64,000 bases of DNA from Sinomicrobium soli (GTDB taxonomy: Bacteria > Bacteroidota > Bacteroidia > Flavobacteriales > Flavobacteriaceae). Shown here one piece after another: positions 11,965-17,937 of this stretch; the first letter of the stretch is position 1, and each line of letters opens with the position of its first letter. Position numbers and translations under genes: made by a program. The stretch covers positions 1 to 64,000 of the forward strand of contig NZ_QLNV01000017.1 in the NCBI RefSeq assembly GCF_003285545.1, in the 5' to 3' direction. The notes under the pieces are model-generated. The model searched no databases. It saw only the letters and a program-made list of their open reading frames with translations, and had not been told where the DNA came from.

Positions 11965-12636
11965 TTATCCCATCTCCCCGTCGAGAATATTACCGTCTAC
12001 CATAACGAGTTTCCTGTCGGCCATATCAGCGAGTTCCTCGTTATGCGTGACGATGACAAAAGTCTGTCGGAATTCGTCCCGGAGCCGGAAAAAGAGTTGG
12101 TGAAGACTTTCGGCCGATTCCGAATCCAGGTTACCGCTGGGTTCGTCGGCAAAGATAATGTCCGGGTTGTTGACCAGTGCCCTGGCCACGGCTACCCGCT
12201 GCTGCTCACCTCCCGACAGCGCCTTGGGTTTGTGGTCATGGCGGTGGGAGAGGTTCAGGAAATCGAGTAATTCAGCGGCCCGTGCTTCGGTTTCCTTTCT
12301 GGGTTTTCCGGCGATAAAGGCCGGTATGCAGACATTTTCCAGGGCGGTGAATTCAGGCAGGAGCTGGTGAAACTGGAAGATAAAGCCGATATGTTTATTG
12401 CGGAAACGGGCCAGTTTACGTGCGCTGAGCCCTGAAATTTCCATATCGTTGATCAGCAGTTTTCCGTCGGGATTGCTCATAAGATCGAGCGTGCCGAGAA
12501 TTTGCAGCAGGGTTGTTTTTCCCGCTCCGGAAGCACCGACGACAGAGACAATTTCCCCCTTGTTGATATGCAGGGAAACCCCTTTCAGTACTTCGAGATC
12601 CCCGAACCGCTTGTGGATATTGACAGCTTTTATCAT
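11965..12636 (-). CDS. ABC transporter ATP-binding protein, LolD/MacB type
   Basis: A 223-aa ABC ATPase. Walker A is GASGAGKT (about residues 34-41), the signature is LSGGEQQR (about 140-147), and Walker B with the catalytic Glu is [13 protein letters not shown]. The H-loop His lies in IVTHNEEL. The SGN after Walker B and the short length fit the LolD/MacB class that powers lipoprotein release or FtsX-type permeases. No permease gene is adjacent, so its partner must be encoded elsewhere. It could serve lipoprotein sorting; the symbol is left blank because orphan LolD-type ATPases cannot be told apart by sequence alone. Confidence 0.85.
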
Positions 12637-12797
12637 CGTATTGTTGTTTCGGCTTTTCTGGCGTGAAAGCCCAAAAATAACTTTTATATGGCAGTTGGGG
12701 GAGAAATTGGAAATGATTTTTTATTATTACCTTTAAAACGGTCTAAGAACTTGTTTAAATCTTAATCTTAACCAGGTATGGAAGCCCATAATGGGCA

Positions 12798-12817
12798 CCT
12801 GCCTGCCGGCAGGCAGG
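12798..12817. repeat. isolated copy of the 20-bp palindrome
   Basis: A perfect copy of the CCTGCCTGCC/GGCAGGCAGG palindrome seen at 87-106 and 1335-1354, here in the 251-bp gap before msrA without the flanking parts of the longer repeat. A smaller hairpin, AAGCCA/TGGCTT, follows at about 12854-12871. Nothing else is recognised in this gap. Confidence 0.75.
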
Positions 12818-12887
12818 TTTAGCAAAAATGGCCAATATCAATTGATATAAACAAAGCCAAACCAATGGCTTGTGAAATTTTGTATAG

Positions 12888-13436
12888 ATGAAAGAGAAGA
12901 AATTGTCAGTGGCCGTGCTGGCCGGAGGGTGTTTCTGGTGTACCGAAGCGGTCTTTAAAAAACTCAGGGGAGTGAAGGAAGTAATTCCCGGTTATACGGG
13001 CGGAACCATAAAGAACCCCGCTTACCGCGAGATATGCACCGGGCGTACCGGGCATGCCGAAGCCATTCGTGTGGAGTATGATGAAGCGGAAATAAGTTTC
13101 GGGGAGCTCCTGGATGTTTTTTTTGCCACACACGACCCCACCACGCTGAACCGGCAGGGGAATGATGTGGGCACACAGTACAGGTCGGCCGTTTTTTATA
13201 CCACAGACCGGCAGCGGGAAACAGCGCGGGAGTATATAACCCTGCTCGAAAGGGAGGGTGTGTTTAATCGTCCCGTAGTTACCGAGATTACGGAAGCCGG
13301 GGCATTTTATCCTGCGGAAACGGAACATAAAGACTACTACGACCTGCATCCGGAACAGCCCTATTGCCAAGTGGTCATAAGGCCCAAGCTGAAAAAACTC
13401 GATACCCTGTTCCGAAAAAAACTCAGGGAGGTATAA
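12888..13436 (+). CDS. msrA: peptide-methionine (S)-S-oxide reductase
   Basis: A 182-aa MsrA enzyme that reduces the S-epimer of methionine sulfoxide in oxidised proteins. The catalytic motif GGCFWCTEAVF places the nucleophilic cysteine at residue 15 with a second cysteine at 18. The downstream EVIPGYTGG, ICTGRTGHAEAI, FFATHDPTTLNRQGNDVGTQ and YDLHPEQPYCQ blocks are all present, so the enzyme looks complete. The start ATG at 12888 is followed directly by the conserved core with no room for a signal peptide, indicating a cytosolic protein. It precedes folE by 39 bp. Confidence 0.95.
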   Translation: MKEKKLSVAVLAGGCFWCTEAVFKKLRGVKEVIPGYTGGTIKNPAYREICTGRTGHAEAIRVEYDEAEISFGELLDVFFATHDPTTLNRQGNDVGTQYRSAVFYTTDRQRETAREYITLLEREGVFNRPVVTEITEAGAFYPAETEHKDYYDLHPEQPYCQVVIRPKLKKLDTLFRKKLREV

Positions 13437-13475
13437 CCGGGAAATTACCGCAACAGATAAAATAACACACAATAT

Positions 13476-14072
13476 ATGGGATACAGGAGATTTGAGGAAT
13501 ACAACCTTCAGGTTACCGATGTGATAAAACAGAGCTACCAGACCATTATTTCCGACCTGGGGGAAAACCCGGAACGGGAGGGGCTTCTTAAAACGCCCGA
13601 AAGGGCGGCCAAGGCCATGCAGTTCCTGACACAGGGATATCACCAGGACCCGGAAGAAATACTGAAAGAGGCGACCTTCCGCGAAGGTTATAACGATATG
13701 GTGGTCGTGAAGGATATAGAGGTGTATTCCCTATGCGAGCATCATATGCTGCCGTTTTTCGGCAAGGCGCATGTAGCTTATATTCCGGACGGGCAGATCG
13801 TGGGGCTGAGCAAGATCCCAAGGGTGGTCGATGTATTTGCCAGGCGGTTGCAGGTTCAGGAAAGGCTGACCCATGATATCCTGGAATGTATCAATACCAC
13901 GCTGAGGCCCCAGGGGGTAGCCGTGGTTATCGAAGCCTGCCATATGTGTATGATGATGAGAGGCGTGCAGAAACAGAATTCGGTAACGACCACTTCAGGG
14001 TTCAGGGGAATTTTTGAAAAGGTGGAAACGAGAACGGAATTCCTCAGGCTTATCGGGTCTGATCTTTCGTAA
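13476..14072 (+). CDS. folE: GTP cyclohydrolase I
   Basis: A 198-aa FolE converting GTP to dihydroneopterin triphosphate, the first step of folate (and pterin) synthesis. The zinc-binding residues are visible: Cys87 and His90 in [11 protein letters not shown] and Cys158 in [10 protein letters not shown]. The [12 protein letters not shown] and [23 protein letters not shown] blocks (written here in parts) are family hallmarks. Start at 13476 gives the usual short N-terminus before the conserved [17 protein letters not shown]. It lies 39 bp after msrA and 17 bp before a small membrane gene, so the three may be co-transcribed. Confidence 0.95.
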
Positions 14073-14532: not shown

Positions 14533-14922
14533 TCAGTGTTTGTGTTTGCAGGATTTCAGGAATTTCCAGTTGTAATAATGCGCCACGGCTATGCATATGG
14601 CCCCTGCGGGGGTGAGGATGGCCTCCCACAGTTCGTGTATTTCTATACGGCTCAGGGCGATTAATACGAACCCCGATATGGCCAGTATTATGGGGAGTTT
14701 TTTATGATGATCCTTCAGGTAAGAGGGGCGTAAGGATAACAGGGCCAGTACCAGCCCTATGGAAATAAAGGTCCATTCTACGAGGGGATGGGCCAGGAAA
14801 GCCAGGCTGCCCAGCGCGGAAAAGCTGATCAGGATAGGGATCGCCGCACAGTGAATGGCACATAACAGCGAAGCGGAAAATCCGACGTGATCGTACCAGG
14901 GTTTTATTCTTGTTAATCTCAT
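14533..14922 (-). CDS. MerC-domain membrane protein
   Basis: A 129-aa, four-helix membrane protein of the MerC family. The vicinal motif CAIHCAAIP lies in the first helix (Cys about 21 and 25 from this start), where MerC proteins bind metal, and the C-terminus ends SCKHKH, another potential metal ligand set. MerC is known for mercuric-ion uptake, but stand-alone bacterial homologues are not tied to a mer operon, and here no merA or merR is nearby. The start at 14922 is preferred over an in-frame ATG at 14952 because a good -7 element (14954-14961) would place transcription start inside the longer version. It diverges from the ABC operon across a region with Fur-type palindromes. Confidence 0.75.
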   Translation of the reverse strand: MRLTRIKPWYDHVGFSASLLCAIHCAAIPILISFSALGSLAFLAHPLVEWTFISIGLVLALLSLRPSYLKDHHKKLPIILAISGFVLIALSRIEIHELWEAILTPAGAICIAVAHYYNWKFLKSCKHKH

Positions 14923-14953
14923 AAATGCTACATTGTTGCAATTAAACTTCATG

Positions 14954-14984
14954 CAAATGTAGTTAAATAAATTTTAAATGCAAC
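14954..14984 (-). promoter_or_regulatory. merC promoter
   Basis: On the minus strand a TTG (14984-14981 region) is followed after 19 nt by TACATTTG (14961-14954), matching the Bacteroidetes -33/-7 consensus. It fixes the merC start at 14922. Confidence 0.6.
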
Positions 14985-14993
14985 AACATAGCA

Positions 14994-15024
14994 TTGATAA
15001 AAGCATTTTATATCTTTACATTTG
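14994..15024 (+). promoter_or_regulatory. promoter of the metal-type ABC operon
   Basis: TTG at 14994-14996, a 20-nt spacer and TACATTTG at 15017-15024 match the Bacteroidetes promoter consensus, about 27 nt before the ATG at 15051. Confidence 0.6.
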
Positions 15025-15050
15025 TAACGTATATCAAACTTTATGATCCT

Positions 15051-15677
15051 ATGATAAAAACAAAGGGGCTCCGTTTCGGGTATGACGGGGAACACAGGTT
15101 TAACTTTCCCGATATTGAAATTGACAGGCGCGGCTATCTTCTGATACTCGGAGAATCGGGGGTGGGAAAAACCACTTTTCTCCACTTGCTGGCCGGGCTG
15201 TTGCGGCCGGAAGCGGGTTCGATCCGTATAGGAGAGACGGATATAACTTCCCTTTCGCAGCGGAAACAGGACAGGTTCAGGGGAAAGCACATCGGCATCG
15301 TATTCCAGAAATCCAGGTTTGTAAAGGCGCTTACGGTAGAGGAAAACCTTTTGCTCGTACAGCACCTGTCCGGGGCCGGACAGGACCGCGATAAGGTGCG
15401 GGAGATCCTGGAACGGCTGAATATAGGGAACAAGGCCGGAGCCCGGGGTTCAAATCTCAGCGAAGGGCAGAAGCAGCGGTTTTCCATTGCGGCGGCACTG
15501 GTAAATAATCCCGACGTGATCCTGGCAGACGAACCTACCTCCAGCCTGGATGACAAGAATTGCAGGGTGGTTACCGACCTGCTCCGGGAGCAGGCCGAAC
15601 AGACCGGTGCAAGCCTGCTGGTCATTACCCATGATCATCGTTTATCGTCTCAATTTTCCAATAGTATCCGTTTATGA
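15051..15677 (+). CDS. ABC transporter ATP-binding protein of the putative metal-responsive operon
   Basis: A 208-aa ABC ATPase of the LolD/MacB class. Walker A is GESGVGKTT (about residues 34-42). The signature is a variant, LSEGQKQR, and Walker B is VILADEPTSSLDD, with the H-loop at VITHDH. The ATG at 15051 is chosen over an upstream in-frame ATG at 14994 because the latter would overlap the promoter and add unconserved sequence. Its TGA overlaps the permease ATG by 4 nt, so the two subunits are translationally coupled. It should power the FtsX-type permease encoded next. Confidence 0.85.
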   Translation: MIKTKGLRFGYDGEHRFNFPDIEIDRRGYLLILGESGVGKTTFLHLLAGLLRPEAGSIRIGETDITSLSQRKQDRFRGKHIGIVFQKSRFVKALTVEENLLLVQHLSGAGQDRDKVREILERLNIGNKAGARGSNLSEGQKQRFSIAAALVNNPDVILADEPTSSLDDKNCRVVTDLLREQAEQTGASLLVITHDHRLSSQFSNSIRL

Positions 15678-16996
15678 ATATTTATAAGTTAGGTATAAAG
15701 AACGCCTTGTCGAACCCGCTCAGTACCATGCTGAGCATTGTATTGATGTTGTTGAGTATCGGTCTTATCTCGCTGATGTTCCAGGTAACCCGGCAGCTGG
15801 ACAACAAGCTGGCCGGCAATATCCGGGGCATAGATATGGTGCTTGGCGCCAAGGGAAGTCCGCTGCAACTGGTGTTGTCGTCTGTGCTGCACGTGGATGC
15901 CCCTACCGGGAACATCAATTTTGGCGAAGCGAAAAAAATTGCGCGCAACCCCCTGGTAAAGCAAGGGATACCGGTGTCTTATGGAGATAACTACAAGGGA
16001 TTCCGCATTCTCGGAACAGAGAAGAGTTTCCTGGAATTATACCGTGCGGAGACCGAAGAGGGGCGTATATGGGAAAAACCTTTTGAGGTCGTGGTCGGGG
16101 CGTTGGCTGCGGAACGTCTGCAGCTGAAAGTGGGAAGTACTTTTTCGGGGTCTCACGGACTTATGGAGAACAGTGCGGAACACCACGATCACCATCCCCT
16201 TACGGTAGTGGGGGTATTAAAACCTACCAATACGGTTGCGGACCAGCTGATCATCTGTAACCTGGAAAGCGTATGGCTGGTTCATGAGCACGGTCATGAC
16301 GATCACGGGACGGAGAGCGGAAAAGCGGAACAGGGGGAAGAACCTCACGAGCATCAGGAAGAAGAAGGGGAGCACCCGCATGAGCATGATGAAGGGCATG
16401 ATCACGACCACGAACATGAGCACGATCACGGGCAGGTTCCGGATGAGGACCGTGAGATCACCTCCATGCTTATCAAGTTTAAGAACCCCATGGGGATGGT
16501 AAGCCTTCCGCGGATGATCAATGATAACACCAATATGCAGGCCGCCCTGCCGAATTATGAGATCGAAAGACTGTCTACCCTGCTCAGTGCGGGAAGCAGG
16601 GCTATTGCGTTTATCGCAGCGGTCATCATGCTGGTATCGGCCATCAGTATCTTTGTAAACCTGTACAAGGCGGTCAGGGAACGAAAGTACGAAATGGCAC
16701 TGCTGCGTACCTACGGGGCTTCCAGGGGGCAGCTTTTGCTGGCCGTCATGGTAGAGGGCCTTGTGATCGGTATTACCGGGTTTCTGGCAGGAATCATCTT
16801 CAGCAGGCTCGGGATGCTCGTGCTGGGGAGTTATGTAGAGGAGAGTTACCGGTATGCCCTCGGAAATGCAGGCATTATGAAAGAGGAGATATTTTTGTTT
16901 ATTTTTACCGTAATATTAACGATATTTGCTACGATAATGGCCGCAGTACCGGTCTTTTATCTGAATGTATCTAAAATTTTGGCTGAGGATGATTAA
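15674..16996 (+). CDS. FtsX/MacB-type ABC permease with His-rich periplasmic loop
   Basis: A 440-aa permease. One N-terminal helix (about residues 18-38), a large extracytoplasmic domain (40-305) and three C-terminal helices (about 308-330, 355-385 and 405-430) match the FtsX/MacB/LolE topology. The periplasmic domain carries a striking His-rich stretch: His170, 171, 173 and 174, then about 15 histidines between residues 204 and 252, interspersed with Asp and Glu. This is a likely metal-binding loop. Permeases of this type with an associated ATPase and DUF3299-like protein are Zur-controlled in some proteobacteria (for example the Pseudomonas PA4063-PA4066 cluster), which fits the Fur gene downstream. 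The substrate, metal or a metal-loaded protein, is not known. Confidence 0.8.
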   Translation: MNIYKLGIKNALSNPLSTMLSIVLMLLSIGLISLMFQVTRQLDNKLAGNIRGIDMVLGAKGSPLQLVLSSVLHVDAPTGNINFGEAKKIARNPLVKQGIPVSYGDNYKGFRILGTEKSFLELYRAETEEGRIWEKPFEVVVGALAAERLQLKVGSTFSGSHGLMENSAEHHDHHPLTVVGVLKPTNTVADQLIICNLESVWLVHEHGHDDHGTESGKAEQGEEPHEHQEEEGEHPHEHDEGHDHDHEHEHDHGQVPDEDREITSMLIKFKNPMGMVSLPRMINDNTNMQAALPNYEIERLSTLLSAGSRAIAFIAAVIMLVSAISIFVNLYKAVRERKYEMALLRTYGASRGQLLLAVMVEGLVIGITGFLAGIIFSRLGMLVLGSYVEESYRYALGNAGIMKEEIFLFIFTVILTIFATIMAAVPVFYLNVSKILAEDD

Positions 16997-17429
16997 AAAG
17001 TTGATATGCAGCGGGGCCCTGGTATTATGGGGCATATGTAGTGTACAGGGACAGCAGGAAGTAACCTGGGAAGACCTTACCGATGTTTCGTTTACATCGA
17101 AGTATTTCGGAGATACGGACGGCTATTTCCTGGTACCCAGTTTCGGACCGGATGTAAAGGAACTGGAAGGCAAGGAAATCTCCGTAACCGGGTATTTTCT
17201 GAACCTGGCCCCGGAAGAAGGAATATTCATGCTTTCCCAGAACCCAATGGCTTCCTGTTTTTTCTGCGGAGGTGGCGGACCGGAATCGGTGATGGAGATC
17301 AAGTTCAGGAACAGCCCGTCGTTTAAGACCGATGAAGTGGTCACCATAACCGGGGTGCTGGAACTCAATGCGGAGGATATAAACCATTGTAATTATATTC
17401 TCAGGGATGCCAGGGGGTTTGCTCTTTAG
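16989..17429 (+). CDS. secreted DUF3299-like protein
   Basis: A 146-aa exported protein with signal peptide MIKKLICSGALVLWGICSVQGQ. The mature part opens VTWEDLTDVSF and has a core with ISVTGYFLNL, then a cysteine pair in CFFCGGGGPESVMEIKF, features of the DUF3299 type of small periplasmic proteins found beside FtsX-like permeases. The ATG at 16989 overlaps the permease stop by 8 nt. An earlier ATG at 16965 lies within the permease and would spoil the signal peptide. Coupled translation makes it a probable third component of the transporter; the Cys pair could bind metal or form a disulfide. Confidence 0.7.
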   Translation: MIKKLICSGALVLWGICSVQGQQEVTWEDLTDVSFTSKYFGDTDGYFLVPSFGPDVKELEGKEISVTGYFLNLAPEEGIFMLSQNPMASCFFCGGGGPESVMEIKFRNSPSFKTDEVVTITGVLELNAEDINHCNYILRDARGFAL

Positions 17430-17430
17430 A

Positions 17431-17477
17431 GTTTATTAGTTCTTGGTTTATTAGTTCTTAGTTAGTTTTATAGTTTG
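17431..17477. repeat. inverted-orientation AACTAAG-type repeat
   Basis: TTAGTTCTT-type units follow the DUF3299-like gene. They are the reverse complement of the AAGAACTAA words found before the patatin and ettA genes. Confidence 0.5.
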
Positions 17478-17535
17478 TGGTTGTTGACCACACCTGAATA
17501 ACCAACCCCGCAACGGAGATATTAAAGAGGTGATT

Positions 17536-17937
17536 ATGGAGAAAGAAGTAGATCATATACTGAAGACCAACAGGCTTAAGCGAACTTCGGCCCGTATCGA
17601 TATCCTGTCTTTATTGCTGGACAGCGGCCATGCCATATCCTATAACGATATCAGTGAGGAACTGGGCCCCGGGTTTGATAAATCTACCGTATACCGCACC
17701 CTGAACAGTTTTGAGGGCAAGGGGATCATTCACGCCGTTAACGACGGTAGCGGAGGGGTTAAATATGCCGTGACCCCAGAAGAGGGAAAAGCTGCCCATG
17801 TACATTTCAAATGCGATATTTGTGCCCAGACCTATTGTCTTCCCAATACCGAGATTCCGGGGGTACACGCTCCCGAGGGCTTTGTTGTGAAGAAATCGTC
17901 CCTGCTGTTAAACGGAATATGCAAATATTGCTCCTGA
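17536..17937 (+). CDS. Fur-family transcriptional regulator (Zur-like)
   Basis: A 133-aa Fur-family repressor. The N-terminal winged helix contains LKRTSARIDILSLLL and the recognition region KSTVYRTLNSFEGKGI. The C-terminal part has the HVHFKCDIC and GICKYC motifs that form the structural Cys4 zinc site of this family. The ATG at 17536 follows AAAGAGG with 5-nt spacing, a clear ribosome-binding site; the GTG two codons earlier overlaps that site. It lies 107 bp after the His-rich ABC transporter operon whose promoter carries palindromes of Fur-box type. Zinc as effector is a hypothesis from context; the metal cannot be read from the sequence. Confidence 0.85.
   Translation: MEKEVDHILKTNRLKRTSARIDILSLLLDSGHAISYNDISEELGPGFDKSTVYRTLNSFEGKGIIHAVNDGSGGVKYAVTPEEGKAAHVHFKCDICAQTYCLPNTEIPGVHAPEGFVVKKSSLLLNGICKYCS

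Follow-up and report, generated by a model that had tools for sequence, protein, structure and literature searches.

A putative Zur-type zinc-starvation locus joining merC to a MacB/PA4066-like operon in Sinomicrobium soli

The kind of system discussed here is already known from Proteobacteria. Zinc control has been reported for the PA4063-PA4066 operon of Pseudomonas aeruginosa (consulted sections of PMC11481552), to which a Vibrio system with ZrgA is related, and zinc-starvation gene sets comprising COG0523, HisI and FolE were described by Haas et al. 2009 (consulted sections of PMC2770081). We analysed a stretch of 64,000 nucleotides of Sinomicrobium soli (contig NZ_QLNV01000017.1; hereafter the window), from a genome of 4.6 Mb in 43 contigs that is 99.7% complete. 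Within the window a gene for a MerC-family protein diverges from an operon that encodes an ATP-binding cassette (ABC) ATPase, a permease, a DUF3299-like protein and a Fur-family regulator, and two related palindromes lie in between. From comparisons of the sequence with its relatives we consider it probable that this is a Zur-type zinc-starvation locus. An earlier reading of the window, made from the letters alone (the sequence-only reading), had noted that MacB-type systems with a DUF3299-like partner are Zur-regulated in some proteobacteria, which agrees with the zinc control reported for PA4063-PA4066. It had also proposed that a Zur-like regulator controls zinc handling through the transporter and MerC, a proposal that is supported by the tree of Fur-family proteins, by the conservation of the palindromes and by the zinc-related genes that neighbour them.

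The five genes, in the same order, and both palindromes (boxes 1 and 2) are kept in all four relatives of the genus that were read (G080, G120, G121 and G123), where the boxes are 36-38 bp apart; in G122, a sixth genus member, a MerC match was not found. Both boxes are degenerate copies of TGCAAC-N3-GTTGCA, and their spacing of 53 bp (38 + 15) in the window is due to a 15-nucleotide stretch beside box 1 that the four relatives lack. The features of the locus are:

14533..14922, minus strand: MerC-family membrane protein of 129 amino acids, from ATG 14922 (reading frame open to ATG 14952)
14926..14940: box 1, putative operator copy at the start of merC, TGCTACATTGTTGCA, one mismatch to TGCAACNNNGTTGCA
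14942..14956: extra 15-nucleotide stretch, seen in the window only on alignment with the four genus relatives; its exact edges are ambiguous
14979..14993: box 2, putative operator copy shared by both promoters, TGCAACAACATAGCA, two mismatches to TGCAAC-N3-GTTGCA
15051..15677, plus strand: MacB/LolD-like ABC ATPase, from ATG 15051 (PF00005, 112.4 bits)
15674..16996, plus strand: MacB/FtsX-type permease with a His-rich loop (PF12704, 37.6 bits, and PF02687, 42.7 bits, both above the cut-off)
16989..17429, plus strand: secreted OB-fold protein of 146 amino acids, PA4066/DUF3299-like, with a conserved CFFCG
17536..17937, plus strand: Zur-like Fur-family regulator, from ATG 17536 or alternatively GTG 17530 (PF01475, 43.9 bits, cut-off 23.1)

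The gene identities and positions given by the sequence-only reading are borne out by Pfam matches to MerC, the ABC ATPase, the MacB_PCD/FtsX permease and Fur, and the tight coupling that it described is present as overlaps of 4 nucleotides between the ATPase and permease genes (15674-15677) and of 8 nucleotides between the permease and OB-fold genes (16989-16996). Among the NCBIfam matches listed for the five proteins no model exceeded its cut-off (for the ATPase, the list comprises the 25 best of 185 matches). A short repeat, TTATTAGTTCTT, lies in the gap of about 100 bp ahead of the Fur gene (17430-17529), where the listed pattern matches include no box.

Within the window alone, matches to the pattern with at most three mismatches number five against 1.96 expected, which is little to go on, so that conservation decides. 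The 4.6 Mb genome has two exact matches to TGCNACANTGTNGCA: box 1 and a site that directly precedes the start codon (ATG) of a COG0523 (cobW-type) GTPase gene, which has an additional one-mismatch box 37 bp from the exact one. Sites with at most one mismatch number nine in this genome, and four of these (on C7, C12 and C38 and at C40:1275) were dropped because they lie inside open reading frames; the two-mismatch sites (92 versus 43 for the reversed pattern) are mostly noise. One of the one-mismatch boxes, TGCGACATAGTTGCA at G000:C40:142167-142181 (L270: 668-682), stands just 5' of TACATTTG and is separated by 172 bp from the TonB-dependent receptor gene downstream (Plug domain), which encodes a candidate zinc receptor of the same regulon. 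Three related palindromes had been proposed at the two promoters by the sequence-only reading; those at 14926-14940 and 14979-14993 are real and persist in the close relatives that retain the genes (four of the four read), while the third, at 15016-15027 on the plus strand, was rejected as an operator: it is absent in the same four relatives, which read TATATTTG or TATCTTTG, a -7 element, at this place, and it overlaps the ABC -7 element.

A scan of genome contigs with a permease alignment recovered at least 585 relatives, of which the best 80 were kept (1.14 Mb). The 80 loci contain 72 boxes with at most one mismatch, versus a single one for the reversed pattern, and the permease genes are accompanied by MerC (33 loci), Fur-family (26), COG0523 (28) and FolE-paralogue genes (19); both MerC and Fur are present in 24 loci, and 43 have at least one of MerC, Fur, COG0523, FolE or HisI paralogue. 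In 14 loci the MerC and ATPase genes are divergent and no more than 250 bp apart, and a box with up to two mismatches is present there in 14/14. The Fur gene lies 3' of the OB-fold gene on the same strand in 13/80 loci. The synteny that the sequence-only reading had suggested looking for is thus found throughout the genus relatives that were read and, as the full layout of the window, in six of the 80 Bacteroidota loci: L182 (Cyclobacteriaceae), L193 (Allomuricauda), L194 (Croceivirga), L212 and L230 (Flagellimonas) and L221 (Flavobacteriaceae). With respect to the surroundings, a LolD-like ATPase gene, msrA and folE (assigned by Pfam) adjoin merC at positions 11965-14072 of the window and are found near the cluster in L281-L283 and L193 too; a FolE paralogue occurs 3' of merC in L193 and several others, and the window has no such paralogue.

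The association with zinc was examined in a sample of 120 genomes of the family, which overlaps with the set of permease loci (L218 and G001:C13, like L221 and G081:C9, were taken to be the same loci). Exact boxes number 50 in 36 of these genomes, versus 6 for the reversed pattern, and all 50 contexts were inspected. By our own reading 21 stand at zinc-starvation or Zur-like genes, namely: Zur-like fur, merC, a FolE paralogue often 3' of merC, COG0523, a HisI paralogue, the ABC operon and a TonB receptor that has a stretch rich in His and Glu; the remainder stand at efflux-type genes (10), inside reading frames (8) or at places without assignment (11). The family labels of the neighbours derive from BLAST against a few reference proteins; Pfam, which was run on examples, confirmed GTP_cyclohydroI, PRA-CH, cobW and TonB receptor and returned DUF6660, ACR_tran and CusB-like matches for the efflux examples. 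Independent support for the connection to zinc comes from the boxes that precede genes for COG0523, HisI and FolE paralogues and His-rich TonB receptors; they place the palindrome ahead of other zinc genes, where the sequence-only reading had proposed to look for it. An exact box is present in 31/74 genomes with a Zur-like gene and in 5/46 without (Fisher p 2e-4, kinship uncorrected), and the reversed pattern in 3 genomes of either kind; Zur-like genes were counted by setting aside the one high-scoring Fur-type match of each genome (two in G063) and taking the remaining Fur-family matches. The genomes without a Zur-like gene account for 6/50 exact sites, four of them inside reading frames.

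The boxes are placed upon the promoters in a regular fashion. We take TAnnTTTG to be the Bacteroidota consensus of the -7 element, and the two promoters of the locus then have:

14954..14961, minus strand: merC -7 element TACATTTG, 19 nucleotides from the TTG at 14981-14983 inside box 2
15017-15024, plus strand: ABC -7 element TACATTTG, 20 nucleotides from the TTG at 14994-14996, overlapped by the third palindrome

Box 2 contains the merC -33 TTG and abuts the ABC -33 TTG (14994-14996). As read from the alignment, the ABC -33 TTG of the four genus relatives lies within box 2, and the -33 and -7 elements of the window are shifted 5-6 bp downstream with respect to theirs, so that box 2 abuts the ABC -33 element instead of containing it. 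The start of MerC is likely ATG 14922 rather than ATG 14952, because ATG 14952 precedes box 1 and would fall at or ahead of the expected start of transcription. For 143 distinct boxes with at most one mismatch, TAnnTTTG begins 43 times at offset -6 to the box, with which it shares TTTGCAAC, 77 times at +27 to +34 from the box start, which puts the box on the -33 element, and 12 times, as a smaller group, at +16; the reversed motif is never found more than three times at any offset (37 in total versus 181 for the true motif). In the loci scanned, 46/57 pairs of boxes within 150 bp of each other are spaced 35-40 bp apart, and the reversed pattern yields no pair. Since the boxes cover -33 and -7 elements, the arrangement fits repression and points to it as the probable mode of action.

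A different geometry is seen at the efflux-type loci (DUF6660 and/or RND genes), where the exact box, often TGCAACACAGTTGCA, lies exactly 12 nucleotides 5' of TAnnTTTG in 10/10 cases (L124, L125, L129, L148, L150, L151, L152, L153, L156 and L158). Judging from this arrangement and from a one-mismatch copy 70 bp upstream of the P-type ATPase gene beside the Zur-like gene C39 of this genome, a Fur-family regulator may also control metal efflux here, perhaps as an activator. Two small proteins of 158 and 165 amino acids without a Pfam match are encoded in L145 (2378-3351), and by eye look-alikes were found beside box, MerC or Fur genes in L056 (4742-5703), L128 (3967-4434) and L160 (2088-2582); they are possible new zinc-starvation genes. 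Boxes also occur near genes of thioredoxin-reductase-like flavoproteins, named by eye, in two genomes (L154: 3520 and L055: 11561; exact, and CGCAACAATGTTGCG), and these are possible further members of the regulon.

The regulator itself was compared within its family. The window Fur protein yields a predicted model with a pLDDT (predicted local distance difference test) of 90.9 and has matches to the Fur-family domain and fold. In a tree of 80 Fur-family proteins, 66 Zur-like rows split from 13 Fur/PerR-type rows at 100/99, and the latter represent one protein for each of 13 genomes, including C33 of the genome studied here. The window protein falls in the Zur-like group, not with PerR or iron Fur; a place among the latter had been named beforehand as speaking against a Zur-like regulator. 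E. coli Zur is found among the 66 on a long branch; the alignment has few columns and the finer groups are unsure. The CxxC pairs C93/C96 and C129/C132 are invariant in the alignment, the window protein also keeps His66, His88, His90 and Cys101. We infer that it senses zinc.

Several observations weigh against a Zur-type locus. At the position of Cys88 of E. coli Zur the window Fur carries Thr, the four genus orthologues that were read have no Cys there either, and the sensing of zinc may be altered as a consequence; the Cys near this position is kept in 51/65 Zur-like relatives and missing in 14, which include L020, a genus orthologue, and the proteins linked to the operon in Flagellimonas, Allomuricauda, Croceivirga and L182. 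Zur could not be told from Fur or PerR by sequence or fold searches, and the curated NCBIfam Zur equivalog NF008646, a model of the proteobacterial Zur, gives 26 bits versus a cut-off of 167. With respect to the operator, the boxes of the window carry 1 and 2 mismatches, 10/50 exact boxes precede efflux-type operons, so that the box also occurs outside the starvation genes, and an exact box is missing from 43 of the 74 genomes in which a Zur-like gene is present, the exact pattern missing degenerate sites such as those of the window. One genome (G003) keeps the ABC operon, and MerC elsewhere, and yet has neither a Zur-like gene nor an exact box, and 37/80 permease loci show no MerC, Fur, COG0523, FolE or HisI paralogue (12/80 stretches are shorter than 14 kb). 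The co-occurrence statistics are, moreover, uncorrected for kinship.

Lastly, the genome contains a second Zur-like paralogue, C39 (G000:C39:242218-242643), which is encoded beside a P-type ATPase, keeps the Cys near the position of E. coli Cys88 and could be the actual binder. A one-mismatch box is present at G000:C39:242154-242168, 70 bp upstream of the start of that P-type ATPase gene. The boxes would then still be a zinc-starvation operator, read by C39, and the operon Fur would have drifted to another signal or partner; we regard this as unlikely. The paralogue has both the conserved Cys and the nearby box in its favour, but genome G081 lacks a C39-type protein, having one Fur-type and one Cys-less operon-type Zur-like protein, and yet has three exact boxes, of which one is at COG0523, one at the ABC operon and one at a place without assignment; as far as genome content can tell, the box is thus most likely read by the Cys-less type. 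The Fur gene at the operon end is, furthermore, kept in 5/5 genus loci that were read, including the window, besides the 13/80 permease loci with a Fur gene 3' of the OB-fold gene.

Quite improbable, in our view, is a locus that answers to iron, manganese, cobalt or peroxide by way of an iron Fur or PerR. The best NCBIfam match of the window Fur is indeed a PerR model, albeit far below the cut-off (37.1 of 180 bits), its best PDB sequence matches are mostly Fur, and the missing Zur-type Cys would fit; against this, the tree separates the protein, at 100/99, from the Fur/PerR-type protein that the same genomes encode, the COG0523, HisI and FolE paralogues next to the boxes are typical of zinc starvation, and the CxxC pairs are present together with the invariant Cys101 and His.

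MerC of the window matches PF03203 with 80.6 bits (cut-off 27.6) and is the only MerC match in the genome. In the family alignment D11, G14, C21, H24 and C25 are nearly invariant and P29 and H115 invariant. A comparison with ZnuA in 31 genomes, in which a sub-cut-off MerC match of G124 was counted as absent, gave both in 1, MerC alone in 12, ZnuA alone in 9 and neither in 9 genomes, a negative association (Fisher one-sided p 0.015, or 0.045 with the own genus collapsed to one) in a small sample that is uncorrected for kinship. ZIP-family genes are present in 31/31 of these genomes, so that zinc has another inner-membrane route. The findings suggest that MerC, which was named for mercury resistance, serves zinc here. 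A mercury-resistance transporter that ended up beside a zinc operon by chance is very improbable despite the clear PF03203 match and the family name, as no MerA match in the genome is over the TIGR02053 cut-off (8 matches, best 376 of 454 bits), MerC occurs in 33/80 permease loci and in many cases has its box region in common with the ABC operon or a Zur-like gene, and it rarely coexists with ZnuA (1/31 genomes).

The permease of the ABC operon carries its His-rich stretch at residues 204-252 (nucleotides 16283-16429), after the first hydrophobic segment and before the later ones; its densest 40 amino acids contain 11 His. The stretch varies among relatives: 45/80 permeases have at least 8 His per 40 residues and 12/80 have at most 4. 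The OB-fold protein has no Pfam match at E 0.001 and does not reach the gathering cut-off of PF11736 (DUF3299), a family that turns up for 2/13 members of the OB family (best E 0.077). Its predicted fold has the DUF3299 protein PA4066 of P. aeruginosa (4hsp) as best match, and the label 'DUF3299-like' of the sequence-only reading is therefore fair; 4hsp was not among the matches listed in PDB sequence searches with the protein and its profile. On account of this modelled fold the operon appears to resemble the Zur-regulated PA4064-4066. A separate His-rich reading frame of the PA4063/ZrgA type was not seen in the operon, for which no homology search was made.

Put together, the following mechanism would account for the locus. 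When zinc is plentiful, zinc-bound operon Fur would bind both TGCAAC-N3-GTTGCA-type boxes in the intergenic region between merC and the ABC operon, where box 2 would cover the merC -33 element and abut the ABC -33 element and box 1 would occupy the merC start, so that both divergent promoters are shut. When zinc is low, the regulator would release the DNA, and MerC, the ABC machine, the OB-fold partner and more repressor would be made. MerC would most likely carry zinc across the inner membrane, and the MacB-type machine, with its His-rich periplasmic loop and its OB-fold periplasmic partner, the putative counterpart of PA4064-4066, would move a metal-binding molecule or handle periplasmic metal. 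Zinc as the effector, the operon Fur as the binder, repression and the cargo of MerC and the ABC machine are thus proposed, whereas the genes, the boxes, their conservation, their tie to zinc-starvation families and their position on the promoters are observed. For Bacteroidota at large we tentatively put forward a possible generalization: a lineage-specific Zur operator TGCAAC-N3-GTTGCA, often in tandem at about 38 bp and built into the -33/-7 elements, MerC proteins as dedicated inner-membrane zinc importers that replace ZnuABC, and the His-loop MacB/PA4066-like machine as an accessory system in zinc starvation.

Neither the operator nor its wide use nor the regular presence of MerC in the gene set appears to have been described. 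In the literature covered by our search, which left most subscription papers outside so that an earlier description is possible, no described Zur regulon for Bacteroidota was found; the main text of a 2018 Zur review (PMC6103462) contains neither Bacteroid* nor Flavobacter*, and the examined parts of PMC2770081 mention no MerC, Flavobacter or Bacteroidetes. Within the same coverage no paper was found that joins MerC with Zur regulation or the MerC domain with zinc, in line with the remark of the sequence-only reading that the link of MerC to such a gene set is little described. The analysis provides a concrete operator and gene set for zinc starvation in Bacteroidota and suggests what MerC genes may do when they are not part of a mercury operon. 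It also shows that the enigmatic MacB/PA4066 module, linked to Zur, occurs widely and that many of the permeases have a metal-binding stretch fused into them, and the negative association of MerC and ZnuA makes the replacement of ZnuABC by MerC directly testable.

In comparison with the described systems, the regulator differs from E. coli Zur in the absence of the Cys at the Cys88 position, in Cys101 that takes the place of E. coli Glu111, in its operator and, according to the predicted model, in the lack of a long helix in the C-terminal part. MerC resembles the MerC of mercury operons in its Pfam family (PF03203) and in the retained LCxxHC motif, and differs from it in a genome without MerA over the cut-off and in a setting among zinc-starvation genes. 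The gene families of the sets of Haas et al. (consulted sections of PMC2770081) recur here downstream of the box. With the PA4063-PA4066 operon the locus shares a MacB-type ATPase and permease encoded separately, with a secreted OB-fold DUF3299 protein after them, in the same order (PA4064 and PA4065 being likened by family). Unlike in that operon, to the extent that the consulted sections of its source describe it, the His-rich part forms a loop within the permease and not a separate protein like PA4063; the regulator gene is part of the operon, the partners are MerC, COG0523 and, in relatives, often a FolE paralogue, and the hosts are Bacteroidota.

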